DNA from: Artemia franciscana
Taxonomy: Eukaryota; Arthropoda; Branchiopoda; Anostraca; Artemiidae
Reading direction: 5' to 3'
Assembly: GCF_032884065.1 (NCBI RefSeq)
Contig: NW_027062665.1
Coordinates: 3,029,266 to 3,093,265 of the forward strand
DNA length: 64,000 nucleotides
The notes beneath the pieces are model-generated. The model did not search any database and was not told where the DNA came from. It saw nothing but the letters and a program-made list of their open reading frames with translations. A program made the translations under genes and the position numbers. Positions 4,198-61,286 of this stretch are shown piece by piece. The first letter of the stretch is position 1. Each line of letters starts with the position of its first letter.

Positions 4198-4274
4198 ATG
4201 TTTCATGGACTTGCATCAAATTTCTAACATGGAGGCACTCATCACAACTTCTGAGGGTACTTTCATTAAAAAAG
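4198..4274 (+). CDS. Exon A1, candidate first coding exon of zinc-finger gene unit 1
   Basis: A short exon with a candidate ATG at 4229, in frame with an earlier ATG at 4205. From 4229 it encodes MEALITTSEGTFIKK plus one base of the next codon. It follows a pyrimidine tract and TAG acceptor (ends 4197) and ends at a perfect GTAAGT donor (4275). Copies A2 (41577) and A3 (58065) encode MAELITTSECFLIKK and MAELITISEGFLIKK and keep the same donor. The phase-1 end joins exon B1 to make a Glu codon. Joined to B1 and C1, the frame from 4229 is 1284 nt with no stop before the terminal one. Whether 4205 or 4229 is used, and whether a 5' exon lies upstream, cannot be told. Function outside the zinc fingers is unknown. 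Confidence 0.6.
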
Positions 4275-5295
4275 GTAAGTTATATAGCTAAATTCTCTGT
4301 TAAAGAATAAAAGGAAAGCTGCTTTAATCTAGAAAATAATTTTCACTTTTTATCTTTCCTAATCCTTATTAGGAAATTTATCTAACCATAAATAATTTCT
4401 TAGACCACACTGCTTTTCCATTTACGAAACAAATAATTGAAGCAAATATATCATAATCAAGCAAATCGAAAAGCATAATCGAAGCAAATGAAAAAATCCA
4501 TTCAATTTATAATTCATAATTGTGTTTCATTAACCTGTAAGATTTTGATTGGATTTGGGGGTTGGGTGACCTCTTTTTCGTATTGTTACAAGTATTTATA
4601 TTTTTCATTTTTGATAGATCCCCATTTATACAGCGATTGTGGCAGAGGAAAGTGCCAATAGAAACAATTATTGCAGTTTTTTTCTAAAGTTACAGTCAAG
4701 TGCGGGAGTGTTTGTTTTAAAATGTGAGTTCTTGTTTCTTTTATATTTGATTGTTTATATTTTTAGTTTGGTTTAGTTGTCGTGGTATTTTTATAATGTC
4801 TTAAAAATAGTCTTAAATTGTTGTAATTTTCTCCTTTTTTGTTTTTTTTTCCCCGTTGAGAAAGGCTCCCGGAGGTGGGGCCGAAATATTCGGAGTATTT
4901 TTATTTTTTGTTAGTTAAAGTGTAGTTTTTATTTTATTTTGTTGTCACTGCTTTAATATAAAAAAATTAAACCCGTTTTTTCTTCAATTATTGGTTTCGT
5001 TATCTAACCATTAAGAGCCGAGGGCTGATAAAAAGGGATATTTTGTGTAACATTAGCTCCATTTTTTTCCATATATAAACTCAATTTATTAGTTATAGTT
5101 ATTAAATTTTGAAAGACAATTAATCATAGGTATTTTTAATTGTCTCAAAAAATGTCTGTTTCTGTGACAAAAAAAAATGTTTCATTTTTTGGTGCATTTA
5201 GTTATTTAATATTCAAATTTTTTCTTGTTAAATGAATCGTTTTTAATTTACCTATTCCAGGAACTTCTATTTTAATGGAATTCCATGAATTTTGT
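4275..5295. other. Start of unit 1 intron 1
   Basis: The segment is AT-rich and has no coding signal. Positions 4275-4370 and 5005-5100 align with the start of unit 2 intron 1 (41643-41730 and 41785-41880). The roughly 640 bp between them is absent from units 2 and 3, so it is an insertion here or a deletion there. It contains a long T/C-rich stretch near 4830-4855. Positions 5240-5295 resemble sequence found again at about 16930-16995, so this host segment flanks the whole 11.6 kb block inserted between them. Confidence 0.5.
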
Positions 5296-5628
5296 TTGGC
5301 TGTTAGAGTGTTTTTTGAAAACGCTGTTGCGCTGGCTAATGCACTTCGACTTGGTATAAAGATTGGGTATGAGATATATCGAGTTTACGAATACCAACGC
5401 CCACCCAAATGCTGTTATAATTGCCAATCACCAAATCACTTAAAATCAAATTGTGATAAAGAAAAATGCTGCTCCCGTTGCGCAGGGCAACATGAATCCT
5501 CGCCTGATTCTCCGTGCCAGGCTACACCAAAATGTGCGAACTGTCAAGGCAATCATGTGTCATTTTCAATGAAATGCCGAATTCTTCGTGAACTTCTGTC
5601 GAAACGATCGTCCTATACTAGAAAATGA
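5275..5628 (+). pseudogene. LINE ORF1 remnant with zinc-knuckle motifs
   Basis: The 117-residue frame has a basic-hydrophobic segment (ENAVALANALRLGIKIGYEI), then a run of CCHC-type knuckles: CYNCQSPNHLKSNC, CCSRCAGQHESSPDSPC and CANCQGNHVSFSMKC. Such knuckles mark the nucleic-acid-binding ORF1 (gag-like) protein of many LINEs. The first eight or so codons come from host intron sequence that matches 16985 and 44160, so the ATG at 5275 is not the element's start and most of the N-terminal half of ORF1 is missing. The stop overlaps the ORF2 ATG by one base (ATGA at 5625), as in elements with coupled ORF2 translation. Confidence 0.75.
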
Positions 5629-17207: not shown

Positions 17208-17378
17208 AAATTGATGATACTTTACCAGGTGAAAATGAAAAGCCCTTCCACATTCCGAACCAATTTTTGTCTCCGAAATGTGAAGATATTCCTTGTCCCA
17301 CTATACCCAGCATTTCAGGACCATGTAAATTTGAATATGAAACCCTGGAATCCGAAACCACATGTCCTGACAATGAAG
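17208..17378 (+). CDS. Exon B1, internal coding exon of zinc-finger gene unit 1
   Basis: A 171-nt exon between a GTTTCAG acceptor and a GTATAT donor, phase 1 at both ends. It encodes EIDDTLPGENEK, then LSPKCEDIPCP, then ISGPCKFEYETLE and CPDNE. Exons B2 and B3 (168 nt each) encode the same framework with an in-frame one-codon length difference, which supports a protein-coding history. Acidic and Pro-rich, it forms the N-terminal, non-finger part of the protein; I recognise no named domain (no KRAB, ZAD or BTB signature). The last base G plus the GT at the start of exon C1 makes a Gly codon. The longer open frame starting at 17141 includes intron and is not the protein start. Confidence 0.7.
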
Positions 17379-20389: not shown

Positions 20390-23300
20390 CAGAGCCATTT
20401 CCCCGGAGCCAAGGGGGGGGGGAGTTAACTGCTGAAGCATATTTATTTGGCCTTTGAACTATTTTGAACAAAATTGTTATATTCAGACTTTGACAGTATG
20501 CCCTTTGGGAAAGTGGGACCTGGGCTAGTTGGCTATTATCACTTTTCACTCTAAAAAAGAGCGAGAAGTTTCGATTTTCGATCAAATGAGCCCCCTCCAA
20601 AGTTAATACGAACACCTCTTCCTCAGAACCTTATGTTCTATTAATGGGCAACTTCCACAAGTTACAATCCTTGCCCCAGCATCTAGGAAAGATTTTTCAA
20701 CCCCTAAGCTTTATTAATTTTATTTTTTGAGACTATTTAGAACAAAATGATTACATAAAAATTTTGATTGGATGTATTTGGAGAAAAAGCACAAGGGGGG
20801 AGGCTTGTTACTTTTTGATCACTTTCGATTCTTAAGAACGTGCAATCTACATAAGTTACAATTCTTGTCCGGGTGCTATAGAGGATTTTTTAACCCCTTC
20901 TTTAGAGAAATTTGAATTTTGGAGTATTTTAAACAAAATGGATATCTCAAAAGTTTTATTGGATGTATTTGGGAAAAAAGGTGTAGGGGGGATAGATACC
21001 CTCCGATTATTTTTGTAACTTAAAAACGTAACTAGAAATTTCAACTTCAATCAAACGAGCCATCTCTGAAGTTTATACGACCACCCCTTTCATATAACCT
21101 TGTATTTCCTTTGGCATAGCTTACAACACTTGCCCTCGGGCTTTGAGGGGAAGAGTCGACCCCTGAGTTTTTGTTATTTGATCTTTAAACTATTATGAAC
21201 AAAATAGCTGTCCCGAAATTTCGATTGGATGCATTTTGGGAAAAGGGCCTCAGGGGGGGCCTAGTTTCCCTCCGATCATTTTTGACTCTTGAGAAGGGTA
21301 CTAGAAATTCTCATTAACAATCGAATAAGCCACCTAAGAAGTTTATACGACCATCCATTCCATAAAAACAGTATGCGCCCCTAGGGCACATTTTTCAATA
21401 CTTGCCTCCTGGTTCTTTGGGGCTATTTTATCCCTGGAGCTTTTGTTATATTTGATTAGCTTGTGTTATATAGAATGGCTACATACAAAATCGATTGGAC
21501 GCATTTGGGAAAAGAAGTTCGGGAGGAGCGGAGGCTAGTCGCCATCAGATCACATTTGACTCTCAAAATGTGAATTAGAACTTTCAATTTCTAATCATTT
21601 GAGTCCCCTCCAAAGTTTATGCTATCATCCTTTCCACTAAAACCTTATATGCCCCGCGGGATAAGTTACAACCTTTCTCCTGGCTCTGGTGTGCGGGGGT
21701 CTTGGGGTTTATGTTGACAACGAAGTTTTTGTTATCTTATTGTTGGACTATTTCAAACAAACTGGTTATCTCAAAATTTTTATTTGATGCATTAGGGGAA
21801 AAGAAGGTGTATTTTTCAGGGGGAGGGGGATAGATGCCGTGTGTCAACTCTTGATTCATAGAAAGGTAACTAGAACTTACAATTCCCAATCAAATAAGCC
21901 ACCATCGAAGATTAGACAATCTTCCTTACATAAAAAGCTTATACACCTCTGGGGCATAATTTAATGCATTTGCCCCCGGGCTCCAGGGGGCTGTGTCGAC
22001 CAGGGAGTTGTTGTTGTCTCATGTTTGAGCTATTTCAGAAAAATTACTGTCTCAAAATTTGTATAAGATGGATTTGGGGGAAAATGACTAGGGGATGAGG
22101 GGGGTGGGTGTTTGCGCTCAGATCGCTTTTGACTCTTAAAAAGTGAACTAGAACTTTCTATTCCCAATCAAATGAGCCCTTTCCAAAGTATGTACGAGCT
22201 TCCGTTCCATAAGAACCACATACGCCCCAAAGAATAATTTACAACGCTTGCCCCCCGGGACTTGGGTGGCTGGGTCGACACTGGAGTTTTTGTTATATAA
22301 CCTTTAAACTATCTTCAACAAAATGACTACCTCAAAATTTTTATCGGATGCATTTAGGAAAAAGGACGTTGGAGGGGGGGGGGGTTTAGTTGCCCTCTCA
22401 TCACTTTTGACTCTAAAAAAGGGCACTAGAAGTTTCGATTTCCAATCGAATGAGCCCCGTTAGAATCACGAAAAAAGGGCAAAGTGGGACTAGTTGCCTT
22501 CCGTTCTCTTTTGACTCTTGAAAAGTTAATTAGAACTTTCAGTTTCCAATCAAGTGAGCCCTCTTTGAAGTTTATACGAACATCCCTTTCATAAGAACCA
22601 TATATGCCCCGTGGATATAACTTACAACGCCTGCTTGGGGCCCTAGGAGTTGTATAACGCCGGAGTTTTGTTATCCGACCTTTGAACTGTTTAACAAAAA
22701 AATGGCTATCTCAAAATTTGTATGGGATGGGTTTGGGGGGGACTGGTTGCCCTTCTATCTCTTTTGACGCTTAAAAAGTGAACTAGGACTTTCAACTTCC
22801 ATTGAAATGAGCCCTCTCCGAAGAATGTTCGAACATGCCTTCCATAAGAACCACATATAAAAACTGAACTAGAGCTTTCAATTTCCAGTCAATTGAGCCC
22901 TTTCTGGAGTTTATACGAGCACCCCTTCCATAACAACGATACATGCCCCAAGGGCTTAATTTACGCCTGTTCTCGGGCCCCGAGGGATTGTGTTGACCTC
23001 AGAGTTTTTGTTATATAATCTCTGGACTATTTTTAAAAAAGGGCTATCTCAAAGTTCTTACCAGATGGGTTTGAGGAAAATAGCGTGTGGAAGGGGGGTC
23101 TAGTTGCCCTCCGATCTCTTTTGACTCATAAAAAGTTGACTAGGACTTTTGATTCAAACAAATGAGCCCTTTCCAAAGTTTATATGAGTATCCCATCCAT
23201 AAGAACCATATATGCCCCCAGAGCATAACTTAAAACGCCCTCTCCTGGGCCCTTGGGGGTTGAATCGACTCAAGAGTTTTTCTTATCTTATTTTTGAACT

Positions 23301-26300
23301 GTTTTTAACAAAATGGCTATATAAATATTTTTATTGGATGGGTTTGGGGACAAAGTGCATGGGGGGGGACTAGTTGCCCTCGGATCTCTTAAGACTCTTA
23401 AAAAGTCCACTAGAACTTTCAGTTTCCAATCAAATTAGGCCTCTCTGAAGACTAGACGAGCATCCATTTCATAAGAACCATGTACGCCCCCAGGATATAA
23501 CCTACTGCTCCTGCCCCGGGCCCTGGGTGTTTGTGTCGACACTGGAGTTTTTGTTTATCTAATTTTTGAACTATTTTAAAAAAAATGGCTATTTCAAAGT
23601 TTGAATCGGATGGGTTTGGGAATAAAGGGTGTGGGGGTCTAGTTGCCGTCCAATCTCTTTTGACTCTTAAAAAGTAAGCCAGGACTTTCAACCAATCAAA
23701 TGAGCTCTCTATGAAGTTTATATGAGCATCCCTTCCATAATAACCATATATATCCTCAGGGAATAACTTACAACGCCTGCCTTCAGGCCTTGGGGGTTGT
23801 ATCGACACCGTAGGTTTTCTTATCTGATCTTTGAACTATTTTTAACAAAATTGCTCTTTCAAATTTTTATCGAATGGGTTTGGGGAAAAACGCTTGGGGG
23901 CTTGTTGCCCTCCAATATCTTTTGAATCTCAAAAACTGAACTAGAACTTTCAAATGACGCCTCTCTGAAGTTTATACGAGCATCCTCTCCATTAGAACCG
24001 TATGTGTCCCCAGGGCATGACTTACAGCGCCTGTCCCCAGGCCCTGGGGGGTTGTGTCGATTCTGGAGTTTTGGTTATATGATGTTTGAACTACTTTTAT
24101 AAATGGCTATCTCAAAGTTCATCGGATAGGTTTGAGAAAAAAGGGCGTGGAGGGGAAGGGACTAGTTACCCTCCCATCTCTTTTGACTCTTGAAAAGTGA
24201 ACTAGAATTTTCTGTTTTTGATGGAATGAGCGCTCTCTAAAGTTTTTACGAGCATCACTTCCATAAGAACCACATATGCCCCCATGGCACAACTTAAAAC
24301 GCCTTCCCCCGGACCAGGGGGGGGGGTTGGGTCTACATCGGAGTTTATGTTATTTGATCTTTGAACTATTTTTAACAAAATGGCTGTTTCAAAATGTTTA
24401 TTGGATGAATTTCGGAGAAAAGAGCGTTTGGGGGGGGGGGTTAAGTTGCCCTCTGATCACTTTTTACTCTTAAAAAGGGCACTAGAAGTTCTGATTACCA
24501 ATTGAATGAGCCTCCTTCAAAGTTTATGTGACGACACCTTCCATATGAAGTGCCTTCAGGAACAATAAATAATATTACATTGAAGTCGTATAGCGTTTGC
24601 TACAGGCAATGCTATAGCGTTGCTATCTGCCTTTTTACCATTTTTAGCCAAATGGCTATTTCAAAAAAAAAATTCTGATGCATTTGGAGAAAAACGGTGT
24701 GGTCGGGGAGGGGGGCTAGTTGTCCTCTGATCTCTTTTTACTCCTAAAAATTGAACTAGACCTTTCACTTTCCAAACGAATGAGCCCTCTGTGAAGTTTT
24801 TACGAGCATCCCTTCCATATGAACCATATATGCCCCCAGGTCATAACTTACAGCGCCTGCCCCCGGGCCCCGGATGTTTTGTTGACGCCAGAGTGGTTTG
24901 TTATCTAACCTTTTAACTATCTTTAAATAAAATGCCTGTCTTAAAAATTTTATCTGGTGCATTAGGGGGAAAAGGGCGTGGAGGGAGGCACTATTTGCCC
25001 TCCGATCTCTTTTGACTCTTAAAAAGTGAACTAGAAACTTTCACTTTACAAACAAATGAGCCCTCTTTAAAGTTTATTCCAGCATTCCTTCCTCAAGAAC
25101 CATATATACCCCAAAGGCATAACTTACCCCGCCTGCCACTGGGCCCTGGGGGGTTTTTTCATGACTGGAAATTTTGTTATCTGACCTTTGAACTATTTTT
25201 AACAAAATGACTATTTCAAAATTTTATATAATGTATTTGTGGGAAAAAGGATTTGGGGCGGAGGCTAGGTGCCTTCCGATCACATTTGACTCTTTAAAGT
25301 GAACTTCAACTTTCAGTTTCCAATTACATGAGCCGTTTCTGAAGTTCATACGAGTATCCCTTCAATAAGAACCATGTATGCCCCCAGGGCATATATAAAA
25401 CATCTGCCCCTGGGTTCTATAGGTGTCGTGACGACGCCGAAGTTTTTGTGTTATCTGACCTTTGAGCTATTTTTAACAAAATGGCTATCTCAAAATTTTA
25501 TTTGCTGCATTTGGGAAAAAAGGCATGGGAGGGGGGCTAGTTGCCCTCCGATGTTTTCTGAATCTGAAAAAAAACGAATTAGAACTTTTAATTTCCAATC
25601 AAATGAGCCCTATCTGAAGTTTATATGAGCATCCCTTCCGTAAAACCCATATTTGCCACCAGGGCTTAACTTACAACGCCCGCCCACCGGTCCCTGGTGG
25701 GTTATGTCGACACCGGAGTCTTGTTCTCTGACCTTTGAACTATTTAAGAAAAAATGACTGTCTCAAAATTTGTATCGCTTGGGTTTGGGGTAAAAAGGGT
25801 GTTGGGGGACTAGTTGCCCTCCCATCTCTTTTGAATCTTAAAAAGTGAAATAGAACTTACAATTTCCATTCAATTGAGCTCTCTGAATTTTATTTGAGGA
25901 TCCCTTCCATAAGAACTATATATGCTCCCTGGGCATAACTTACAACGCTTGCCCTCGGGCCGGGGCAATTGTGTCGACACCGGATTTTTTTTATCTGACC
26001 AAATGACTATCAATGACTATGTTAACAAAATCACTATCTTAAAATTTTTATCGGATGCATTTGGGGAAGAATGGGCATGGGTGGGTCTAGTTACCCTCCG
26101 ATCTCTTTTTACTCTTAAAAACTGGACGCCTGGCCCTGGGCTCTGAGGGATTGTGTTGATCCTGTATTTTTCGTTATATAATCTTTGAACTATAAAAAAT
26201 GGCTATCTCAAAGCTCTTATCGGATGGGTTTGAGGAAAATATGTTGTGGTGGAAGGGGGAGCTAGTTGCCCTCAGATCTTTTTTACTCTTTAAAAATTAA

Positions 26301-27305
26301 CTATAACTTTCACTTTACAAAAAAGGGAGCCTCTCTGAAGTTTATACCATCATCCCTCCCACAAGAACCATCTATACACTCCCAGGGCATAACTTATAAC
26401 ACCTGCCCCGGGATCTGGGCGGTTGTATGGTCACTGGAATTTTTTTATCTGACCCTTTGAACTAAGCTTAACAAAATGGCTATCTTAAATTATTTATCCG
26501 ATGCATTTTGTGGGGGGGGGGATGAAGGTGGAGATAAGTTGTCCTCCAATCACTTTTAACTCTTTAAAGTTAACTACAACTTTCAATTTCCAAAAACATG
26601 AGCCCTCTTTGAAGTTTATATGGGCTTCACTTCCATAAGCACCATATATGCCCAAGGGCATAACTTACAACGCCTGTCCCCGGTCTCAAAATTTCTATCT
26701 ATTGCATTTGAGAAAAAGGGCATGAAAGGGGGCTAGTCGCCCTTTGATCTCTTTTGACTCTAAAAAATGAACTAGAATCTTTAATTTCCAATCAAATGAG
26801 TGCTTTCTGAAGCTTATACGAGCATCCCTTCCATAAGAACCATATTTGCCCCAAGGGCATAACTTACAAAGCCTACCCCCGGACCCTGAGGACATGTTTA
26901 AACACCAGAGTTTTTATTATATGATGTTCGAACTATATTTAACAAAATAGCATCTCAAAATTTTTATCGGATTTATTTGGGGGAAAAGGGCATAGACGAG
27001 GGGGGCAGTTGCCGTTCGATCACTTTAGACTCTGAAAAGTGAACTAGAACTTTTAATATCCAATCAAATGAGTCCTCTTTGAAGTTCATACGAGTATCCC
27101 TTCTATAAAAACTCTATTTGCTCTTAGGGCTTAACTTACAACGCTTGCCCCCGGGCCATAGGGGGGTTTTGGCGACCCCAGAGTTTTTTTTTATATGATC
27201 TTGATCTATTTTTAACAAAATTGCTACCTCAAAAGTTTTATCGCATGTATTAGGGGTAAAGGGCTTGGGGGCTAGTTGCCCTCCTATCATTTTTAACTCT
27301 AGAAA
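20390..27305 (-). repeat. Tandem repeat array A, minus orientation, about 25 units
   Basis: The same unit as at 1-2990, reversed. Each unit of about 275 bp reads on the plus strand: GGCATAACTTACAACGCC, a CCCCGGGCCC-like block, GGTTGTGTCGACACCGGAG, TTTTTGTTATCTGACC, TTTGAACTATTTTTAACAAA, ATGGCTATCTCAAAATTTTT, GGATG-GTTTGGGG, a G-rich run, CTAGTTGCCCTCCGATC, TTTTGACTCTTAAAAAGTGA, ACTAGAACTTTCAATTTCCA, ATCAAATGAGCCCTCTCTGA, AGTTTATACGAGCATCCCTT and CCATAAGAACCATATATGCC. Units differ from each other by many substitutions and small indels, and some are partial. No gene is supported inside, although repeat translation yields frames up to 118 codons. Confidence 0.95.
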
Positions 27306-27310
27306 AGGGC

Positions 27311-28275: not shown

Positions 28276-28282
28276 CCTGTCT

Positions 28283-29041: not shown

Positions 29042-29482
29042 ATTTTTTCTTTCTTTTTATGTTATAATGTATTGACTTTTATATTCATTGTGTTGATTTT
29101 TCTATTTCGTATTAATGTTTCCATTTATAAATTTTTTAATTGTAGTAACTGCATTAAATGCTATTTTTATTGTATTGACATTTTTATCTACTTATTTATT
29201 CCTGTATTTTAGCTTTATTTAAATCTGTGATACAGATATTTTAAGTAATATTAGCAGAATAGAGGTGTGATATACATACTAGTGCCGGTGATTTAAGCAA
29301 GAACACTCTGTACAACGTCCTAGTACTCTCCTAAGATATCATAAGTGTTGACGTGGCCCATGTCAAAATTTTATTAGTGTGTTTTCAAAAGTGTCGTGGC
29401 TTCATAAGCCCAAATTTCAAAAGAGGATCGCATGTATACGAGCGGTTAATTCGCTCAAACGTCAACTAAACAACAAAAACAA
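29042..29482 (+). other. T-rich tail of the RNase H LINE fragment and flank
   Basis: Non-coding T-rich sequence shared with 49582-50030 in unit 2. It includes ACAGATATTTTAAG, AATATTAGCAGAATAGAGGT and a stretch ending in CGCTCAAACGTCAACTAAAC followed by a short CAACAA repeat. No poly-A signal and tail can be picked out. Confidence 0.5.
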
Positions 29483-38960: not shown

Positions 38961-39029
38961 TGGATAAGCCTAATCAATTGAACTACACTCATGGTAAAGT
39001 AGAAAGCGAATCTCAAAAGTCTGTAAATT

Positions 39030-39622
39030 GTGATTAGCCTGATTTCTGTTTATCTCATCAAATCCTCTGCAGCAGCCCTTAATTACCTGATGAATGAACA
39101 TGACCCTAGTCGTGAGATAGTTTATAGCAGGCTTATTCATCAAATTATTAGGTCATTAGAGTGTGTGGGGAATGATATAGGCTACTGCTGGTATGGGTTC
39201 CAGTACATGTTCAAATTGCTGAACATGAATCTTCTGATAATATTGCTAACTGGGGTATTCTAAATGGCCTGAGTATTATTCTGAAACCCACACAAACTAA
39301 ATATATAACGTGTATTTATAATTTATTAGCCTATGTGATAGGGATGGTATTGAATATGCAATATTAGAAATTGTGCAAACCCAATGATACTCCTTTATGA
39401 TTATAGGCTACCATCTGATGGGCTGGTACATGATATTGGATCTGTTGCTGCTACTATTTTTAGATTAAGGACAGGTCATGCAAAAACTCATTCAGTTTTG
39501 CATAAAAAGGGCAGAGTTAGTTCTCCTTTCTGTGATATTTGGAATGACTTTGATGTGTTAGACATAGGCTGATGAAGTGTAGAAAATATGATGTTCAATG
39601 TACTTCAAAGTTTAATTCTAAA
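39030..39622 (+). pseudogene. Highly decayed LINE RNase H relic (between units 1 and 2)
   Basis: Plus-strand fragments correspond to the RNase H LINE at 28.3 kb: SSAAALNYLMNEHDPSREIV, then HQIIRSLECVGNDIG, then a degraded WVPAH region, then LPSDGLVHDIGSVAATIFRL and HAKTHSVLHKKGRVSSPFCD. Several frameshifts are present. Its counterpart before unit 3 is 56830-57180, which carries a further internal deletion. The Penelope-like element at 39634 is inserted into its 3' part. Confidence 0.75.
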
Positions 39623-39721
39623 GCATTTTGCAAAAGTAAAACAGTTCAAAATAGGGATGATACCTTTTTGTTGACAGTGAATAGATATAAAATTATTTAA
39701 CTGGATATTTTGTACACATAT

Positions 39722-39871
39722 ACAGTGTTCATCATCAGCAGTAAAACTAAAAGACATGAATAAAAATAAACAAAATTTATACCTAATAAACTAATTACAG
39801 TGTTCATCATCAGCAGTAAAACTAACAAACATGAATAAAAATAAACAAAATTTATACCTAATAAACTAATT
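39722..39871. repeat. 75-bp tandem duplication inside the left Penelope arm
   Basis: Two copies, 39722-39796 and 39797-39871, differ at only a few positions. 75 bp is 25 codons, so the minus-strand frame repeats SLLGINFVYFYSCLLVLLLM. The right arm has a single copy. Confidence 0.9.
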
Positions 39872-40082
39872 ACATATAGTTTATTGCTCTTATTTTTATA
39901 TTTTATAGCTGGGGCAAATCTCTTTGACCTTTTTAGTTCCAGTTCATTAGAATTATCTGACATATTATGTAGACAGAGGTCATAGCTCTTAGGTGAGGTG
40001 ATATTTACTTTATTTGACCTCAGTTAATTATCATAAATTGAGTTCAATCCATTGAACTCAATTTATTTTTAAATTCTGGAAA

Positions 40083-40700
40083 GGATTAGACTTCTGTAGA
40101 ACAACAAAGTGGGGTTTATAAAATCCCATGTACTTGTGGAAGCTCTTATGTAGGATGTACTAACCAGAATTTAAAAAGGAGATTGCTACAACATCATAAT
40201 TCTATTTCATCATCTTTAAAGCAAAATACCAAACCTAAAGATTTCACATTGGGCCTCTTGGAACAAAATAAATATAATTTTCCAAATCATTTTATTTTGT
40301 TTGAAAATGTTTCTTTGATGTCTAGGGACCAAGGTTTAAAGGAAATTTTCAGGGAAACAATCAAAATTAAAAAAACTCTATTCAAGAATAATTCCATAAA
40401 CAGAGATACAGGTGAATTTGGATTGAACTCAATTTATGATAATTTACTGAGGTCAAATCAAGTAAATATTACCTCACCTAAGAGCTATGACCTCTGTCCA
40501 TGTAATATGTCAGATAATTTTAATGAACCAGAACTGAAAAAGTTCAAAGAGATTTGTCTCCGCTGTTGCATTGAAAAAAATAAGAGTAATAAACTATATG
40601 TAATTAGTTTATTAGGTATAAATTTTGTTTATTTTTATTCATGTCTTTTAATTTTACTGCTGATGATGAACACTGTATATGTGTTTGAAATATCCAGTTA
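40083..40700 (+). pseudogene. C-terminal GIY-YIG endonuclease of a canonical Penelope-like element
   Basis: A plus-strand frame running in from upstream of the ATG at 40183 reads GVYKIPCTCGSSYVG and then NLKRRLLQHH, the GIY-YIG core with conserved Tyr and Arg. It continues to LKEIFRETIKIKKTLF and NRDTGEFGLN, matching the R-E-A-I-E-I-K and NRD-G signatures at the C-terminus of Penelope-like proteins. The frame continues with CNMSDNFNEPELKKF and a hydrophobic tail. No reverse transcriptase is attached, so this is a 5'-truncated copy. The domain order here is the usual one, unlike the relic at 12.8-15.3 kb. Confidence 0.75.
40660..40690 (+). other. Hammerhead-ribozyme-like core in the Penelope 3' region
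   Basis: CTGATGA at 40660-40666 is followed by a potential stem (GAACAC at 40668-40673 with GTGTTT at 40681-40686, loop TGTATAT) and then GAAA at 40687-40690. This is the core arrangement of a hammerhead ribozyme, and such motifs are known in Penelope-like elements. I could not find convincing stems I and III or a clear cleavage triplet, and one extra U follows CTGATGA. The left-arm copy has lost GAAA. Tentative. Confidence 0.2.
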
Positions 40701-40814
40701 AATAATTTTATATCTATTCACTGTCAATAAAAAGGTATCATCCCTATTTTGAACTGTTTTACTTTCATCATGGAAAGGCAGTGTGGTCTTTGAAGTTATC
40801 TATGCATTTTGTAA

Positions 40815-41576
40815 TCAGTAAAATTCTAAGTTGTGCAAGTCCCCTAAGTGGTCCCATAGAAAGGCTGTATCCCTATTGACTTAAGTATTTAAAAAATACA
40901 ATTTACATAATGTTCTATAAGTTTTGTGTCTTTATTGTATTTTATGTATGATTTATTTGATTTATCTAAATTTTTTAATTTTTTTTTAATTTTATTTTAT
41001 ATATAACTAGATATGTTGGGTAAATGTATCACAGTTCATATAATTGACTTACCAATAAAGTGAATATACCACTTGATGCCTTTTTTTGTGCTCTTTACAA
41101 ATATAATTGTTGCTTCTAGCCTATCACAAATTCAAATTTAAGCACTTTTTGACCTAACCTAACTATAAATAATTTTGGCAATGACAAAATGTAGTATTAT
41201 TTTGTCTAAAACAACCAATAACTCATACTTTTATGGAAAATTTGTCATTTTAACAGCTCAAAAAGTGCTTCAAAAGTACACTTTAAATAGAGTTATATCA
41301 GAAAGACAATTTTAGAATTTTAGCTCTCTCTCTCCTTTCCAATGCTCTTGACTGTTTAAGGATTTGAACCCATTCTTTTAACTGTGTTATGATAAGCTGA
41401 CAGTTGTGGTTACAGTGGTTGAAAGTCATTATTATTCATCAATCATTACAGCTTTTGTTTTTTCAGAGACTTCTGCAACTAGTTTCTTTAATAAAATCTG
41501 ATCACTGTATTCAAGTGTTGATCATAGTATTATTCCTTTCAAAATTACATTAACTTGATTCCACAATCTTTTATAG
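40815..41576 (+). other. LINE relic tail and conserved block upstream of exon A2
   Basis: Positions 40815-41060 continue the tail of the decayed RNase H LINE (GTTGTGCAAGTCCCCTAAGT). From about 41280 the sequence aligns with the blocks before exons A1 and A3. These include ACTGTTTAAGGATTTGAACC, a TTTTTTCAG acceptor-like tract at 41458-41466, and CAATCTTTTATAG directly before exon A2. No promoter element can be named with confidence. Confidence 0.45.
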
Positions 41577-41642
41577 ATTTGCCTCAAATTCTGAATATGG
41601 CTGAACTCATCACAACTTCTGAGTGTTTTTTAATCAAAAAAG
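41577..41642 (+). CDS. Exon A2 of zinc-finger unit 2
   Basis: Acceptor TTTTATAG ends at 41576, ATG is at 41597, and the donor GTAAGT begins at 41643. It encodes MAELITTSECFLIKK and ends in phase 1, so splicing to exon B2 makes a Glu codon. Upstream in frame is DLPQILN without a stop until the acceptor, so the exon may also be internal. It is part of a unit whose exon C is frameshifted, so the mature gene is probably not functional even if transcribed. Confidence 0.55.
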
Positions 41643-42298
41643 GTAAGTTATATAGTTATATTCTCTGTAACAGAGTGAAATGAAATCTGCTTTGCTCTAG
41701 AAAATAATTTTGACTTTTTATCCTTCTTACTCATTAAGTGGTACTAAGTATAAAAAAGTGTATCTGCATATGCACTTGGATCTTACCATTAAGAGCTGAA
41801 ACATTACAAACAGTGGCAATTTTGTGAAACATTAACTGCTTTTTTTCTCCACATATAAACTCAATTTGTCATCTGGCAAGAATAATTTTCTCCCACTCTC
41901 TCTTGTGTTTAGGTATGATGAGCAAAATGCTAGCACAAAAGTGTGGTATTAATGAGGCAGCAAGATCTTTTATAAGTATAATATAGGTAATATTGAATTC
42001 AGATGGGAATATTAAGCTAAAAATATGTAAGAGAGGGATAAAGTTAGTTGAATTCAGCTGCTTAACTTTGGGAGGCTGCATTTGTTTTTTACATTTTGGG
42101 AACTATTCCACTTGATGCAGAAAACCCCAATTGATTGGTATTTTGGGTGCATCTAACTCTGTCAAAAAAGTTCTTTGTTTGTTTGATTAAAATTATTTAT
42201 TTTCTTTATCTTTGTTTAATTATTGAGTTGTCATTTTTTTTACTCAATTAATTATGGCACTTGGTATTAACCAAGTGACATATAGCAATTGCAAGTTC
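41643..42298. other. Start of unit 2 intron 1
   Basis: Closely matches 58131-58789 of unit 3. It contains GGTATTAACCAAGTGACAT and several T runs. The minus-strand frame at 41869-42081 has a near copy at 58380-58568, but similarity is uniform along the intron, so no gene is called. Confidence 0.5.
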
Positions 42299-44060
42299 TG
42301 TTGGTCGGTCTGTCTGTCTGTCTGTCTTGGTTTTGCGAGTTTAGGCACTTCCAGATAAGCTAGGACAATGCAATTTGGCAGGCGTATCAGGAACCAGACC
42401 AAATTAAATTAGAAATAGTCATTCTTCCCAATTCTACCATATGGGGGGGTTGGGGGGACAGTTAATTTGGAAAAATTTGAAAAGTTGAAGATTTTCAACT
42501 GACAAGTGGGTGATTGGATCTTAATGAAATTTGACATTTAGAAGAATATCGTGTCTCAGAGCTCTTATTTTAAATCCTGACTGGAACTGGTGACATTGGG
42601 GGAGTTTGGGGGGGTCCTAAAATCTTGGAAAACGCTTAGAGTTGGAGGGATTGGGGTGAAACTTGGTGGGAGAAATAAGCACAGGTCCTAGATATGTGAT
42701 TGATATAACCGGAATGGATATGCTCTCTTTGGGGGAGTTGGGGGGGGGGGTGTGTTAATTCTGAAAAAATAGATATTTTTAACTTACAAAGGAGTAATAG
42801 GATCTTAATGAAATTTCATATTTATAAGGATCTATTATTCTAAATCCTGATCCAGTGTCATCAGGGGGAGTGAGGGGGGACCAGAAATCTTGAATATAGC
42901 TTTAAGTGGGGGGATCGGGATGAAACTTGGTGGAAAAACTAAGCAAAAGTCCTAGATACGTGATTGACATAACCGGAAAGGATCTGCTCTATTTGGGGGA
43001 GTTGGGGGGGGGGGGTAATTGAGAAAAATTAGAAAATATGAGGCATTTGTAACTTACAAATAGGTGATCAGATCTTTATGAAATTTGATATTTAGAAGGA
43101 TCTTGTGCTTCAAAGCTCTGGTTTTAAATCACGTCCAGATTTGGTGACATTGGGGGGAGTTGGAGGGGGAAACTGGAAATCTTGGAAAACATGAAAATTG
43201 AGTTTTCTATATATACGAAACTTGATATATAGAAAGATCTTATGTCTCAGATGCTCCATTTTCATTTTGAATTGGATGTGGGGGCATAGGAGGCTGGGAG
43301 GGGGAAACAGAAATCTTGGAAAACACACAAAGTGGAAAGATTGGGATGAAACTTGATGGGAAGAATAAGCAAAAGTTTTAGATACATGATTGACATAATT
43401 GGAAGGGATCCGCTCTCTTTGGGGGAGTTGGGGGGGGGGGGGTTGTTAATTCAGAAAAATTGAAATATTTTTAACTTAAGAACCTGTGACCAATTCTTAA
43501 TGAAATTTGATATTTAGAAGGAACTCATGTCTCAGAGCTCTTATTGTAAATCCTGACCAGATCTGGTTACACCGGAGGGAGCTGGGTGGGGAAAGAAGAA
43601 ATCTTGGAAAACGCTTAGAGTGGAGAGATCAGGACGAAACTTGGTGGGTAGAATAAGCAAATAATGTAGATACATGATTTACGTAATCGGACTGGATCCG
43701 CTCTCTTTGAGAGAGTTTTTTTGGGGGGAGGGGTCTAGTGCTTTGGTGAGTTTGGTGCTTCTGGATGTGCTAGGATTATGAAAATTGGTAAGGATGTCAG
43801 GGACCTAAACAAATTGACTTGAGAAAGTGTTTTCTCCGATTTGACCATCTGGGGGGGGGTTGAAAGGAGAGGAATCATTAGAAAAAATCAGGTATTTTTA
43901 ACTCACGAGTGGGTCATTGGATCTTAATGAATTTTGATATTTAGAACAAACTTGTGTCTCAGAGCTCTTATCTTAAATCCCAACTGACATTAAGCCTCTG
44001 ATTTTCCTTTAAGTGGAGTCTATTGATTCTTAGAATTTTGCTTGAGCTCAAGCCATATGA
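42299..44060 (+). repeat. Tandem repeat array B, unit 2 intron 1
   Basis: Starts with (GTCT)n at about 42305-42328, then a head segment (TTTTGCGAGTTTAGGCACTT, CCAGATAAGCTAGGACAATG). Several units of about 260-290 bp follow. Each has GATCTTAATGAAATTTGATA, TTTAGAAGGATCTTGTGTCT, CAGAGCTCTTATTTTAAATC, a GGTGACATTGGGGGAGTTGG block with a G run, AAATCTTGGAAAACGCTTAG, GGGATGAAACTTGGTGGGA and GATACGTGATTGACATAACC. A tail with ATGAGCTCTTGGCTC motifs ends near 44135. The same array is in unit 3 (58790-60620), and a single piece is at 47289-47785. No coding content. Confidence 0.9.
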
Positions 44061-44641
44061 GCTCTTGGCTCTTCCGACCTCGTTACAAGTGCGATATGAG
44101 CTGTTAGCTCTTGTTACTGTTGATTTATGCCAATCCAAAACCTGCTATTTTAATGGATTTCCATGAATTTCGTTGAACGTTTCAGTCTTTTTTTTAATAA
44201 AAGCATATTGTCAAAACGATTTGAGAAAAAACCTGCAAATACATCTGATTAAATGTATATACATATATTGAATATACATGTAACATCTGTATATTTTATT
44301 TTAACATAACTAAAAGAAAAAGCATTTGGATTTGTTTAGTAAGATTTAATTCTGAATAATTCTGAATTTTGTTGAATGTTTCAGATTTTCTTATGCTTTG
44401 TAAGATGCAGATTTTAAAAACGTTTTTGAAAAAAAAACCTGCATATACGTCTGATTTAATGTATATATGTTATATGTATTTGTTATACATGTTTAATGTA
44501 TATATGTATGTTGAATATACATGTAACGTCTGTATATTTTTTTATTTTTTAACTTAACTAAAAGAAAAAGTAGTTGAATTTGTTTGGTAAGCTTTAATTC
44601 TGAATATTTTCTATGTCTGTTTGATTTAAATTTTGTTTTAG
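44061..44641 (+). repeat. Tandemly duplicated pre-exon-B intron segment, unit 2
   Basis: The segment before exon B is present twice (about 44155-44372 and 44373-44641). Both copies contain a TTGAAYGTTTCAG stretch, AAACCTGCAWATAC, ATATACATGTAAC, AACTAAAAGAAAAAG and TAATTCTGAATA. Unit 1 has a single copy (16965-17207); unit 3 has the same doubling. The first copy does not contain an exon B duplicate. Confidence 0.75.
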
Positions 44642-44809
44642 AAGTTGATGATGCTATACCAGATGACAGTGTGAAGACCTCTTGCATTCCAAACCTCTTG
44701 TCTCTGAAACATGAAGATGTTCCTTTCCTTTCCTTACCCAGCGATTCAGGACCACATAAGTTTGAATATGACACCCAGGGATTGGAAGCCACATGTCCTG
44801 ACAATAAAG
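44642..44809 (+). CDS. Exon B2 of zinc-finger unit 2
   Basis: A 168-nt exon between a TGTTTTAG acceptor and a GTACAT donor, phase 1 at both ends. It encodes EVDDAIPDDSVKTSCIPN, then LKHEDVPFLSLP, SGPHKFEYDTQG and CPDNK. It differs from B3 at seven positions by my reading, five changing an amino acid, so there is no clear sign of purifying selection between these two. The open frame starting 44584 includes intron. Confidence 0.65.
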
Positions 44810-45699
44810 GTACATCTCATATTTTTTGTCATTTTAGATTCCAAGTTATCAGTTAATATTTTATGCAACAAAAATTAGACAAAGGGACTTAATCTTAAGA
44901 TACAACTTGTTTGTGCAGGTGTTTACCGAACTGTTTTTGTGGTCTTACATGAACGTTTCCAAATATTGTCTTGAAAGTAGTTGGGCAAATGTTGAGAAAG
45001 CCTGATAATAAGCCATAAATCTATAGATTTCTGTATAGTTTTCACAATTCACTTTTATAGTGTTTACCTCTCTATGTAAATTAATATATATATATACCAG
45101 GTGTATGTAATAGATATAAATAGTATGTAAATATATTTAATAATATGCGAGTGTTACAAATGATGTAATTAATATTTAAATCAGATATATTAATATGTAA
45201 ATAAAGAGTTGCATATGGAAAATTCAGAAATGAGTTGAGGGATCTATTTTAGTGGTTTTCTCTTAGAAAGGGCACTAGAACGTTTAATTTTCAATCAAAA
45301 TAGCTCCTTTAAAAGTTTTATTGATATTAATAGCTATGATATAGCAGCACTGCCTGTGATATCGATTATACTCCCTTATTTACACCTGCCTGCATATAGT
45401 CTTTTTTCTTTTTTTTTATTGAAAATCCTCCTTAACGTTTTCTGAAAGTTTCATGTTAAAAACTTTAATGTGATTAGTTACAGTTGGCGTAAAAGTAGTG
45501 TTAAATTTATACGTAGTGGCTTCTAATCAATTCAAAATCTGCCAAAACTTGACCGGAAAGGTATAAATAAATAATGTAAACCGTTCTTCAGATATTACTT
45601 TGTTATCCCCTTGACAATCTACATTCTCATAGTTTGTTATGATTTATTTCCATATCTGCCTAATTAATTCTTTAGAGCTTATCCTTAATACCCTTAGCT
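44810..45699. other. Start of unit 2 intron 2
   Basis: Near-identical to the corresponding part of unit 3, except that about 1.2 kb present there (61740-62935) is missing at about 45262. It contains a (TA)n stretch at about 45085-45098. No gene is seen. Confidence 0.5.
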
Positions 45700-45800
45700 T
45701 GTGTAGTAGCAAAAGTTGTAGTAGCAGTAAAATTAATAGTAGTAGCCCTAGCTTTAGTAGTAGTATGAGTAGAAGTAGTAGCATTAGGATGCAAATATTG
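45700..45800. repeat. Degenerate (AGT)n microsatellite, unit 2
   Basis: Imperfect AGT/AGC trinucleotides (GTAGTAGCAAAAGTTGTAGT, GTAGTATGAGTAGAAGTAGT). The unit 3 counterpart at 63385-63480 is longer. Confidence 0.8.
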
Positions 45801-46210
45801 TGTTTTCGTTAGTTCAAAATCACCCACAACAAGCCTTTTAACTTTCAACTAAACACACAAAATTATTTTTAAGATGTTGTCGACATGCCCTTATTACAAC
45901 CTGCATACAGACGGGGTATTTTGACTGTTTCAGTGGGATTAATAATAGTTGTGGTAGCAGAAATATTGCCTGTTTTGTTAATTGATCATGACATTTATCA
46001 TTTCCTGAAAATACCAAATAAGTATACTTAGTCATTTTCTACTTACACCTATTTGACAACCCGCATGCACATAAAGTGCATTGATTTATTTGGACACTCC
46101 CCTCAACATTCTGGGATAGGCTCACCTGAATGCTTTTCATCTTTTGGAAAGTAAGATACCAATCTTGCGCAATAATATATAAGCCACCATATGTAAACGA
46201 TGAACGAATT
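45801..46210. other. Intron 2 sequence between the AGT repeat and array A remnant
   Basis: Aligns with 63485-63915 in unit 3. No gene is seen; the minus frame 45838-46035 has no recognisable features. Confidence 0.5.
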
Positions 46211-47288
46211 ACCTAGCTTAAAGCCCTTGCCCTGATGGCTGTAGGGGTTTTGGCATCCTCAAAGGCATAATTACTGGACTTTTCAACAATTTTGAACAAC
46301 ATAGCTGTCTCAGAATTTTGATTTTGGATGCGTTTTGGGAAATGAGGAGTGTGGGATGAAGGGCTGGTTGCCTCTCAATAAGTTTTGACACTAAAAATTC
46401 TCATTAAATGAGCCCCATCCAAAGTTCATACGACTAGTCATTCCATAAAACCTTATATACCCCTAAAGGATAACTTACAACCATTGCCCCTTGGCTCTGT
46501 TTTTTTTTTTTTTTTTGTCAAGCCTGAAGGCATTGTTAATTGTTCTTTGAACTATTTTGAACAGAATGTTTGTTTCCAAATTTCAATGAAACTTGTTTGG
46601 AGAAAAAAGTGCCTCGGGGGGGGGGTAGCTGCACTACTAATAACACCAGATTTTTCAAAAAGTATTGTATGACTGGTGTTATTAAATATATGACAAGCTA
46701 AAGTAGTATCAAAGGAATTATTAGAACTATTAGAAACTAAGACTTTGTGTATGTTTTCTTTATTCAGGTGCATGTATTAATACTGATGAGTATTAATATT
46801 AACTACTCATTGCAGCATCCATCTATCTGAGGCCAACACGGGGATAAACATTCTTCCTCCACCTTAGTATCGATTTCCCATCTGGTTTCGATATCCAATC
46901 GAATGAGTCCCGTGGAAATCATTCGATTTGGAAAAAAAGGGCATGGGGGGACAAGTTGCCTTCCGTTTTCTTTTGACTCTTAAGAAGTCCACTAGAACTT
47001 TTAGTTTCCAATCAAATGAGCCCTCTTTGAAGTTTATATGAGCATCCCTTTCATAAGAACCATATATGCCCCATGGGTATAACTTACAACGCCTGTTTGG
47101 GGCCCTGGGGGTTGTGTAACACCGGAGTTTTGTTATCTGACCTTTGAACTGTTTAACAGAAAATGGCTATCTCAAAATTTGTATCGGATGGGTTTGGGGC
47201 GGGGACTGAGGCCTCTCTGAAGACTAGACGAGCATTCCTTTCATAAGAACCATAGACGCCCCCAGGATATAACTTACAACACCTGCCC
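46211..47288 (-). repeat. Array A remnant, unit 2, interrupted by a short insertion
   Basis: Partial array A units lie at 46211-46625 and 46870-47288 (for example CATAAGAACCATATATGCCC, GTTATCTGACCTTTGAACTG, ATGGCTATCTCAAAATTTGT). In unit 1 the corresponding array is about 7 kb. The interruption 46640-46865 is not array A; it has a short inverted motif (ACACCAG at 46640, CTGGTGT at 46673) and a minus-strand frame reading HKVLVSNSSNNSFDTTLACH, which I cannot assign. Confidence 0.8.
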
Positions 47289-51234: not shown

Positions 51235-52131
51235 GTCACTTGTCATCAAGCGTGTCTGGACTACACTTACAGGGAAACACGTCACTAGTTGCTTCAAAGA
51301 ATTTATCTGCCAATTGTTTCTCAAATTCATTTGCTTTGGAATCTAAAAGAAAAAAACTTAAAAATTCAGACAACATGTTTGAAAAGTCACCTTCAAAGTA
51401 AAAAGCATAGAAAATCGGAGAGACATCAAAGAACACGTAAAGGTGAAAAGATGTATTGTGGTTTATGTGAGAAATTTTTTTCTACAGTGCAAAATCTGAA
51501 TCGGCACCTAAGAGTGCATACGGGTGAGAAACCTTTTAAATGTGATGTATGTGACAAGAAATTTTCTCAAGCGGCATCTTTGAACATGCATCAAAGAGTG
51601 CATACGGGTGAGAAACCGTTAAAATGTGATGAATGTGACAAGAAATTTTCTCTAAAGCGTAATTTAAACACGCATCAAAGAGTGCATACGGGTGTGAAAC
51701 CTTTTAAGTGTGATGTATGTGACAAGACCTTTTCTCTAGCAGCAACTTTAAAGACGCATCAGAGAGTGCATACGGGTGAGAAACCGTTTAAATGTGATGT
51801 ATGTCACAAAAGCTTTTCGCGGGTACATAATTTAAACACACACAAACGAGTACATTCGGGTGAGAAACCGTTTAAATGTGATGTATGTCACAAAAGCTTT
51901 TCGCGGGTACATAATTTAAACACACACAAACGAGTACATTCGGGTGAGAAACCGTTTAAATGTGATGAATGTGACAAGACCTTTTCTCAAGCGGCACATT
52001 TGAAGAAGCACCAGAGAGTGCATATGAAAGAGAAATCATTCAAATGCGATGTATTTGAGAAATCCTTTTCTCATCGGGAGTCTTTGAACAGGAATAAAAC
52101 ACATCATGCAGATGATAAACCTTTTAAATGA
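51235..52131 (+). pseudogene. Exon C2: zinc-finger exon of unit 2, frameshifted, seven fingers
   Basis: The acceptor and the start HLSSSVSGLHLQGNTSLV match exon C1 exactly. In the run of A after GAATCT (51345-51349) this copy has one extra base relative to C1. The frame entered from exon B2 therefore ends at 51399-51401, before the fingers. The finger frame itself is open from upstream of 51289 to 52131. It contains seven intact C2H2 fingers from 51457 (84-bp period), one broken finger at 52045 and a TGA at 52129 in the first Cys codon of the next, as in C1. Contact residues (-1,2,3,6) are TQNR, QASM, LRNT, LATT, RHNT, RHNT, QAHK. An alternative start or splice could still yield the fingers, so silence is not proven. 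Confidence 0.75.
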
Positions 52132-58064: not shown

Positions 58065-58130
58065 ATTTGCCTCAAGTTCTGAATATGGCGGAACTCATCA
58101 CAATTTCTGAGGGTTTTTTAATCAAAAAAG
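58065..58130 (+). CDS. Exon A3 of zinc-finger unit 3
   Basis: ATG at 58085; encodes MAELITISEGFLIKK and ends in phase 1 at a GTAAGT donor (58131). It joins exon B3 in frame. Its finger exon lies outside the window, so whether unit 3 is a working gene cannot be judged. Confidence 0.55.
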
Positions 58131-58789: not shown

Positions 58790-60640
58790 TTGGTTGGTCT
58801 GTCTGTCTGTCTGTCCTGGTTTTGCTAGTTTCAGTACTTCCAGATAAGCTAGGACAATGAAATTTGGCAGGCGTATCAGGAACCAGACCAAATTAAATTA
58901 GAAATAGTTGCTCTTCCCGATTCGACCATCTGGGGGGGGGGACAGTTAATTTGGAAAAATTTGAAGATTTTCAACTGACAAGTGGGTGATTGGATTTTAA
59001 TGAAATTTTACATTTAGAAGAATATTGTGTCTCAGAGCTCTTATTTTAAATCCCGACTGGATCACGTGATATTGGGGGAGTTAGGGGGGACCTAAAATCT
59101 TGAAAAAGGCTTAGAGTTGGAGTGATTGGGATGAAACTAGGTGGGAGAAACAAACACAGGTCCTAGATATGTGATTGAAATAACCCGAATGGATCTGCTC
59201 TCTTTGAGGGAGTTGGGGGGTGTGTGTTAATTCTGAAAAAATAGATATTTGTAGCTTACAAAGGAGTGATAGGATCTTAATGAAATTTCATATTTATAAG
59301 GACCTTGTAACTCAGATCTATTATTCTAAATCCTGACTGGATCCTTTATCATCAGGGGGAGTTGGGGGGGGCAGAAATCGTGAAAATGGCTTAGAGTGGG
59401 GGGATCGGGATGAAACTTGGTAGAAAAACTAAGCAATAGTCCTAGATACGTGATTGAAATAACTGGAAAGGATCCGATCTCTTTGGGGGAGTTGGGGGGG
59501 GGTAATTGAGAAAAATTAGAAAATATGAGGCATTTGTAACTTACAAATAGTTGATCAGATCTTTATGAAATTTGATATTTAGAAGGATCTTGTGCTTCAA
59601 AGCTCTGGTTTTAAATCAAGTCCAGATTTGGTGACATTGGGGGGAGTTTGAGGGGAAAACTGGAAATCTTGGAAAATATGAAAATTGAGGTTTCTATATA
59701 TTACGAATGGGTGATCAGATCTTAATGAAACTTGATATATAGAAAGATCTTATGTCTCAGATGCTCCATTTTCATTTTGAATTGGATCCGGGGGCATAGG
59801 AGGCTGGAAGGGGGAAACAGAAATCTTGGAAAACACATAAAGTGGAAAGATTGGGATGAAACTTGATGGGAAGAATAAGCAAAAGTTTTAGATACGTGAT
59901 TGACATAATTGGAAGGGATCCACTCTCTTTGGGGGAGTTGGGGGGATTGTTAATTCAGAAAAATTGAAATATTTTTAACTTAAGAACGTGTGACCAGATC
60001 TTAATGAAATTTGATATTTAGAAGGAACTCATGTCTCAAAGTTCTTATTGTAAATCCTGACCAGATCTGGTTACACTTTGGGGAGTTGGGTGGGGAAACC
60101 AGAAATCTTGGAAAATGCTTAGAGTGGAGAGATTGGGATGAAACTAGGTGGGTAGAATAAGTAAATAATGTAGATACGTGATTTACGTAACCGGACTGGA
60201 TCCACTCTCTTTGAGAGAGTTTTTTTTTGGGGGGGGGTCCAGTACTTTTGTGAGTTTGGTTCTTCTGGATGTGCTAGGATGATGAAAATTGGTAGGTATG
60301 TCAGGGACCTGCACAAATTGACTCGAGAAAGATTTTTTTCCCTGATTTGACCATCCGGGGGGGGGGGTTTGAAAGGAGAGGAAAAATTAGAAAGAATCAG
60401 GTATTTTTAACTCAAAGGTGGGTCATCAGATCTTAACAAATTTTGATATTTAGAACAAACTTGTGTCTCAGAGCTCTTTTTTTAACTCCTGAATGTCATT
60501 AAGCGTCTGATTTTCCTTTTAATGGAATCTATTGATTCTTAGAATTTTACTAGAGCTCAAGCCATATGAGCTCTTGGCTCTTGGCTCTTCCAACCTCGTC
60601 ACAGGTGCCATATGAGCTGTTAGCTCTTGTTACTGTTGAT
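58790..60640 (+). repeat. Tandem repeat array B, unit 3 intron 1
   Basis: Same order of units as 42299-44135, starting with a (GTCT)n at about 58798-58814. Lengths of the G runs and some units differ, and at 59703-59730 it has a segment (GGGTGATCAGATCTTAATGA) missing from unit 2. The tail has repeated GAGCTCTTGGCTC motifs near 60570. Confidence 0.9.
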
Positions 60641-61118
60641 TTATGCTAATCCAAGACCTGCTATTTTAATGGATTTCCATGAATTCGGTTGAACGTTTCA
60701 GTCTTTTGCTTTATAAAAGCATATTGTCAAAACAATTTGAGAAAAAACCTGCAAATACATCTGATTAAATATATATACATATATTGAATATACAAGTAAC
60801 ATCTGTATATTTTTTTTGAACATAACTAAAAGAAAAAGCATTTGGATTTGCTTAGTAAGCTTTAATTCTGAATAATTCTGAATTTTTTTGAATGTTTCAG
60901 GTTTTCTTAGTCTTTGTAAGAGGCAGATTTTAAAAACGTTTTGTGAAAAAAACCTGCATATACATCTGATTTAATGTATATATGTATGTTGAATATTCAT
61001 GTAGTGGCTGTATATTTTTTATTATTTAACATAACTAAAAGAAAAAATAGTTGGATTTGTTTGGTAAGCTTTAATTCTGAATATTTTCTATGTCTGTTTG
61101 ATTTAAATTTTGTTTTAG
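60641..61118 (+). repeat. Tandemly duplicated pre-exon-B intron segment, unit 3
   Basis: Two copies (about 60670-60885 and 60886-61118) as in unit 2, ending in a TGTTTTAG acceptor at 61118. Confidence 0.75.
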
Positions 61119-61286
61119 AAGTTGATGATGCTTTACCAGATGACAGTGAGAAGACCTCTTGCATTCCAAACCTCTTGTCTCTAAAACATGAAGATGTTCC
61201 TTTCCTTTCTTTACCCGGCGATTCAGGACCACATAAGTTTGAATATGACACCCTGGGATTGGAAGCCGCATGTCCTGACAATAAAG
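61119..61286 (+). CDS. Exon B3 of zinc-finger unit 3
   Basis: A 168-nt exon, phase 1 at both ends, donor GTACAT. It encodes EVDDALPDDSEKTSCIPN, LKHEDVPFLSLP, SGPHKFEYDTLG and CPDNK. It is the closest relative of B2. The longer open frame starting 60974 is mostly intron. Confidence 0.65.

Follow-up and report, generated by a model that had tools for sequence, protein, structure and literature searches.

Organization of a tandem zinc-finger gene cluster

The 64,000-nucleotide stretch of Artemia franciscana DNA analysed here, referred to as the window, corresponds to positions 3029266-3093265 of contig C79, in an assembly of 1.27 Gb and 6468 contigs. It contains recurring exons of a C2H2 zinc-finger gene that would be spliced from three parts, designated A, B and C. 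The original prediction placed these exons on the + strand and in the order A-B-C, and they are found at the predicted positions with phase 1 read from the sequence at every junction: exon A ends ..AAAAAAG/GTAAG (the slash marks the splice point), exon B starts AG/AA and ends ..G/GTA, and exon C starts CAG/GT. Joining the three exons of unit 1 yields the predicted open frame of 427 codons, from the ATG at 4229 to the TGA at 31801-31803. Three copies of the gene had also been proposed, and here the recurrence of the exons stands but their equivalence does not, in that unit 1 alone is intact, exons C2 and C3 are frameshifted, and units 2 and 3 are mosaic. The explanation that best accounts for the whole is a tandem cluster of three-exon C2H2 genes, enlarged by duplications with breakpoints in the intron between exons B and C, that would encode DNA-binding repressors, and we hold it with considerable though not full confidence. 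The exons in the window are as follows.

4099..4197, +: candidate 5' untranslated region (5'UTR) part of exon A, unit 1; an acceptor-like TTTCCAG of putative splice use ends at 4098
4198..4274, +: alpha-type exon A of unit 1; ATG at 4229 (MEALITTSEGTFIKK), donor AAAAAAG/GTAAGT, phase 1
17208..17378, +: alpha-type exon B of unit 1; 171 nt, phase 1-1
30737..31803, +: alpha-type exon C of unit 1; linker of about 70 amino acids, fingers, TGA at 31801-31803, then decayed finger relics
41577..41642, +: beta-type exon A of unit 2
44642..44809, +: beta-type exon B of unit 2; 168 nt
51235..52131, +: alpha-type exon C of unit 2; linker frameshifted relative to the A-B frame, open finger frame at 51289-52131
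58065..58130, +: beta-type exon A of unit 3
61119..61286, +: beta-type exon B of unit 3; 168 nt, with its partner exon C outside the window at window coordinate 71074

The region searched by tblastn comprised the window and 100 kb on each side (264 kb), and the recurrence within it is beyond chance (B1 against B3, E=1e-15; A1 against A3, E=1.7e-4); the DNA blocks bearing the exons align at 73-89% identity. Exon C of unit 1 encodes nine complete C2H2 fingers and one finger lacking a Cys, and there are seven complete fingers in C2 and five in C4. Because an in-frame stop lies closely 5' of exon A in all three copies in the window, the start codon is placed within this exon. A better acceptor-like CAG is located about 100 bases 5' of the predicted exon A starts in units 1-3 (ending at 4098, 41466 and 57954), the matching site in units 2 and 3 being TTTTCAG, and since this site is shared by three units together with the upstream stop, exon A probably consists of 5'UTR followed by the start codon in M(E/A)(A/E)LI.

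More copies were expected to flank the window, and the tblastn and genome searches together recover further A, B and C exons on either side. The 264-kb region carries five A exons and five C exons, on one strand throughout. The flanking exons are listed below, in window coordinates except for the last three, which are positions on contig C79.

-96601: C(-1), with fingers interrupted by a stop
-33992: A0
-19111: B0
71074: C3
80351: A4
81957: B4, lacking the first 12 codons
92065: exon C4, with five complete fingers in an open frame
2905431: further exon B, 27 kb upstream of C(-1) (genome search)
3194505, -: further exon B (genome search)
3214196, -: further exon C (genome search)

In the tblastn search of this region there is no C match between B0 and A1. 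The only run of Ns in the 264 kb sits at window coordinates -46235 to -46136, and thus cannot hide an exon C following B0. This 100-bp run is flanked by a 10-kb repeat (-56159..-46236 and -46135..-36197) whose copies are 99.2% identical, probably representing an unmerged assembly overlap.

Mosaic structure of units 2 and 3

The units were grouped by pairwise comparison of the exons together with 600-bp flanks. The A-B front ends form one group of units 0 and 1 (90-93% identity) and another of units 2 and 3 (87-91%), which B4 joins at 86-87%. Among the finger exons, C1, C2 and C3 group together, with 84-87% identity in the 5' flank, and C4 groups with C(-1) at 90%. Units 2 and 3 are therefore mosaics, because the front end of each comes from the beta group and the finger exon from the alpha group. 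Self-comparison locates the duplicated block, which is given here with the satellite repeats that precede it.

20434..27316 (no strand): satellite repeats of about 272 bp in the B-C intron of unit 1
27281..47207 (no strand): duplicated block C1-(intergenic)-A2-B2

A copy of this block with the arrangement C2-A3-B3 extends from about 47766 to about 64950, slightly beyond the end of the window, and its main pieces are 86-93% identical; the same pattern goes on around C2 and C3. A well-supported scenario is growth of the cluster through tandem duplications whose breakpoints lay in the B-C intron, which would both add units and create hybrid genes with a beta front end and alpha fingers. Such hybrid joins stay in frame because the junctions are phase 1. 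The satellite repeats of unit 1 reach about 27.3 kb, and the corresponding intron of unit 2 contains a short satellite-related stretch (46885-47304) that adjoins the putative breakpoint and may have caused the duplication event.

A further pair is seen on contig C4, where an exon B at 33172294 (89% identical to B3) lies 7.6 kb before a linker at 33180034 that is 99% identical to that of C1 and has an open frame of 450 amino acids. This is either another beta-alpha pairing or the product of a recent exchange.

Frameshifts and the common end of the C exons

The joined A-B-C exons of unit 2 reach a stop after 132 codons, and the unit is without an open frame because the C2 linker is one base longer than that of C1. 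C3, which lies 7 kb past the window end, has one base fewer than C1 in that part of the linker, and both shifts fall within the GAAGAAAAAAACTTAAAAA tract. Two AG dinucleotides in the interval 51201-51480 (at 51349 and 51442) would restore the frame of unit 2 as alternative acceptors, but neither has a pyrimidine tract and such a rescue is therefore not put forward. The C3 frameshift (window coordinate ~71180) spans an A_AAA_AAC heptamer, which we take to be a slippery site, but programmed frameshifting was dropped as an explanation because C1 carries the heptamer (~30842) in an intact frame and C2 would require a shift in the opposite direction.

The C exons also have a common end. A TGA follows '..DKPFK' in C1, C2 and C4 and '..DKSFK' in C(-1), and beyond it lie decayed finger relics; in C3 two stops follow '..DKPS' at the place matching the TGA of the other copies. 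Since the stop and the relics are shared among copies, this end looks older than the duplications.

Distribution in the genome

The original prediction of an expanding family is borne out by comparing the exon B and linker peptides with the whole genome, related B exons being present on 38 contigs and C exons on 36. The numbers are lower bounds, with 150 rows scored of 247 candidates for the 79-residue linker query and 150 of 181 for exon B. All 150 scored linker rows have E<=1.6e-4 and, once split rows are merged, they represent at least 146 C-type exons; 18 rows carry stops and the other 132, some of which cover the linker partly, do not. The exon B query gives at least 149 rows at E<=1 and at least 101 at E<=1e-3, and the 48 rows above 1e-3 may include chance matches.

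The order B then C recurs genome-wide. For 96 of the 149 B exons the nearest C within 30 kb downstream shares their strand (median distance 7254 bp), for four it lies on the opposite strand, and 49 have none; for the 101 B exons at E<=1e-3 the corresponding numbers are 72, one and 28. On the upstream side, a same-strand C is found for 32 of all 149 B exons, an opposite-strand C for none, and no C for 117. Viewed from the finger exon, 76 of the 146 C exons have B upstream, with one copy in 58 cases, two in 16 and three in 2. In the fetched pieces that were read, exon A is seen once outside the cluster, in an A-B-C set on contig C6 whose exon B is shortened by a stop. Contig C224 has two B exons upstream of a C, with the phase-1 sites kept. 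The 5-kb upstream pieces from contigs C82, C5 and C18 contain neither A nor B; the genome search places B exons farther out on contigs C82 (703772) and C5 (48123350).

Finger-encoding loci were surveyed by scoring 150 matches of 6344 candidates and picking 20 places across clusters in addition to loci L001, L002 and L007 (L003-L006 and L008 were excluded because they overlap L007). The exon-C linker is present in 11 of these 23 loci (E<=2e-12) and absent from 12, and eight of the 11 have an AG at the same point. The other three, on contigs C14, C16 and C20, instead continue upstream in contiguous coding sequence that bears a different signature; homology to exon C begins exactly at the splice point on contigs C14 and C16. 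The upstream part from contig C14 (zinc-ribbon-like, '..AIDELTAGIWRCATCGK..') was considered as a possible hidden exon between B and C, but finds only finger-to-finger and weak chance matches in the 264-kb region.

Other N-terminal signatures precede finger arrays elsewhere. A second signature, 'SSDG..QPKLFGPKPIL.VKKLTEKAI.ELTAGIWRC..CGK', occurs in zinc-finger genes at L002, L007 and L033, where it is contiguous with the exon-C linker, and partly at L001, L036 and L042. Two further ones are recognizable by eye before the arrays at L030, L032, L040 and L041, and, as 'YVPLPL..DSTF.SN.ID', at L038 and L048.

Features of the predicted proteins

Exon A, with about 15 codons, would open the protein, and exon B (56-57 codons in the window, phase 1-1) would add an acidic stretch, followed by the conserved linker of about 70 residues and the finger array that exon C would contribute. 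A Pfam search with the unit 1 protein identifies nine to ten zinc-finger stretches (zf-C2H2 and zf-H2C2_2). The fingers are consecutive, with TGEKP-like joining linkers, and are of the ordinary DNA-binding C2H2 type; their contact residues vary among copies.

The N-terminus had been described as unfamiliar, and A+B+linker indeed has no Pfam match at E<=5. Pfam holds models for KRAB, ZAD, SCAN and BTB, and none of the four matches this segment at that threshold; KRAB is also absent from the best 25 of 32 matches of the full protein. No description of the three-exon N-terminus was found in Pfam or word-based literature searches, which are distinct from a protein-database sequence search. The peptide across the A/B junction reads I-K-K-E in units 0-3 and I-K-S-E in the contig C6 copy, and these five junctions fit psi-K-x-E, which is the SUMO consensus.

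Sequence constraint and alternative explanations

Ratios of nonsynonymous to synonymous substitution rates (dN/dS) were calculated by the Nei-Gojobori method. The finger exon is constrained, with dN/dS of 0.34-0.38 for the finger frame in five pairs, a rough figure in that the fingers are repeated and the C2 linker lies partly out of frame. The alpha-type linker exon is 92-94% identical among copies, compared with 84-87% in the preceding 700 bp of the 5' intron. Between the two groups, exon B shares 77-78% identity and its 400-bp flanks 61-68%; the constraint on the front end appears weaker, and is not firmly shown.

Several observations weigh against the favoured explanation. The dN/dS values for A+B are 0.63-1.02 in units 0-3 (six pairs) and those for exon B are 0.38-0.97 in 15 pairs involving the contig C224 or C6 copies, so that any selection on the front-end peptide is either weak or not demonstrated. 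A downstream C within 30 kb is missing for 49 of the 149 B exons, and these lists give no upstream B for 70 of the 146 C exons; no A is present in the 8 kb read upstream on contig C224. A4 groups weakly with A2 and A3 (78.5% over 428 bp, versus 79% over 197 bp with A1). In an AlphaFold2 model of the linker, residues 1-32 are disordered, with a predicted local distance difference test score (pLDDT) below 50, and a helix at 31-69 before the first finger has pLDDT of 59-71. That A is joined to B and B to C is itself a prediction from the exon sequences. Lastly, with disruptions in C2, C3 and C(-1) and a truncated B4, most of the cluster may be decaying.

The strongest alternative, to which we give close to an even chance, is that the cluster is mostly dead, with unit 1 as the sole near-functional gene and the others as pseudogenes left by duplication. 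The frameshifts in C2 and C3, the stop in C(-1), the truncated B4 and the A0-B0 pair without a C all agree with this, as do the A+B dN/dS values and the end that the C copies have in common, with its decayed fingers and a TGA (C1, C2, C4, C(-1)) or two stops (C3). However, the low if rough finger-frame dN/dS extends even to C2 and C3, the splice sites of A and B are intact in units 0-3, and genome-wide 132 of 150 linker rows, some of them partial, are free of stops. Exon C4 is open, and joining A directly to C, skipping B, would keep the frame.

A distinctly less probable alternative is that units 2 and 3 are intact and that the C2 and C3 frameshifts are assembly errors in an A-rich tract. Both shifts do fall in the GAAGAAAAAAACTTAAAAA tract with the downstream fingers remaining open, and the assembly has local faults, since the 99.2% identical 10-kb repeat flanks the nearby N gap. 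The two shifts nonetheless differ, one being a base more and the other a base fewer, and they are accompanied by substitutions.

A similarly tentative proposal is one of mixing and matching, in which the A/B and C pools evolve separately and are rejoined in the satellite-rich B-C intron, several front ends serve one C, and a SUMO site assembled by splicing marks the repressors. If it is true, alternative N-termini are supplied by A0-B0 in addition to A1-B1, and by the two or three B exons that precede each of 18 C exons.

Somewhat more doubtful is a simpler array of alternative promoters, in which A0-B0 and A1-B1 would be alternative front ends that both join C1. A0-B0 does lie before A1 with no C of its own, either pair would meet C in frame given that all junctions are phase 1, and, among the 76 C exons preceded by B, 18 have two or three copies of it, two of these cases being on contig C224, where one was read at the sequence level. 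A duplication breakpoint in the B-C intron also accounts for a front end without a C. That A and B belong to an unrelated repeat travelling with the finger genes is very improbable, because although the within-cluster dN/dS of 0.63-1.02 and the 49 of 149 B exons lacking a nearby C would suit it, the contig C224 copies keep the phase-1 sites, a same-strand C follows 96 of 149 B exons as against 32 on the upstream side, and full-length B exons differ in length by multiples of three only.

Other elements in the window

Pieces of non-long-terminal-repeat retrotransposons are located at 5236-8660, 28348-28914 and 48898-49335, and include zinc-knuckle, endonuclease and reverse-transcriptase open reading frames and two fragments of RNase H; matches to RNase H and to the zinc knuckle fall below the Pfam cut-offs. 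The open reading frame at 40090-40701 encodes a GIY-YIG domain and presumably derives from a Penelope-like element. Rfam gives no match in the window at the gathering score.

Relationship to other zinc-finger families

C2H2 families that expand in clusters and have N-termini of their own are already well known. The tandem C2H2 cluster described here resembles the FiNZ-ZNF genes of cyprinid fish, which the portions available of Wells et al. 2023 (PMC10547256) present as a large C2H2 subfamily with a short, domain-less N-terminal sequence upstream of the finger exon. It differs in layout, the feature compared rather than the peptides, in that FiNZ is given there as 28 amino acids in a single exon, whereas two upstream exons and a linker within the finger exon are present here. 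The APEZ or ZF271-like genes of the pea aphid and milkweed bug are likewise depicted, in the excerpts at hand of Panfilio et al. 2019 (PMC6444547), as tandem clusters of high turnover with varying gene structure and pseudogenes; the likeness is one of description, not sequence, and shared N-terminal exons are not described in those excerpts. The Artemia cluster is similarly clustered and variable in structure, with many tandem fingers and pseudogenes, features that do not define common descent with APEZ. Mammalian KRAB- and SCAN-ZNF clusters are also tandem with N-terminal exons upstream of the finger exon, and the available parts of PMC5363842 and PMC2443715 report duplications in which effector exons are gained or lost, and propose exon shuffling; the front-end exons here differ from theirs. 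The insect ZAD-ZNF family, as far as the sources at hand describe it, is an expanded C2H2 family with its own N-terminal module, but no ZAD domain is found here in the Pfam scan. The intronic mosaic of units 2 and 3 is a clear example of the exon shuffling already proposed for such genes, as set out in the consulted part of PMC2443715.

By analogy with KRAB and FiNZ, as far as the consulted parts of PMC10547256, PMC2443715 and PMC5363842 extend, the role would most likely be repression at mobile elements. On the same analogy the products are likely to be fast-evolving DNA-binding repressors, perhaps directed at mobile elements. Judging from other expanding C2H2 families, the proteins would be sequence-specific DNA binders and the N-terminus would recruit co-repressors, possibly via SUMO at the psi-K-x-E across the A/B junction; mobile elements would be their likeliest targets.

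Lineage-restricted C2H2 families with N-terminal tags such as KRAB, ZAD and FiNZ are believed to follow arms races with mobile elements, an idea for which every new tag provides an independent test. The tag described here has three exons and no Pfam match, and its B and C parts each occur over 100 times genome-wide. In this cluster, adjacent blocks that differ in identity appear to show front ends and finger arrays rejoined through an intron, which makes the origin of hybrid zinc-finger genes directly testable.

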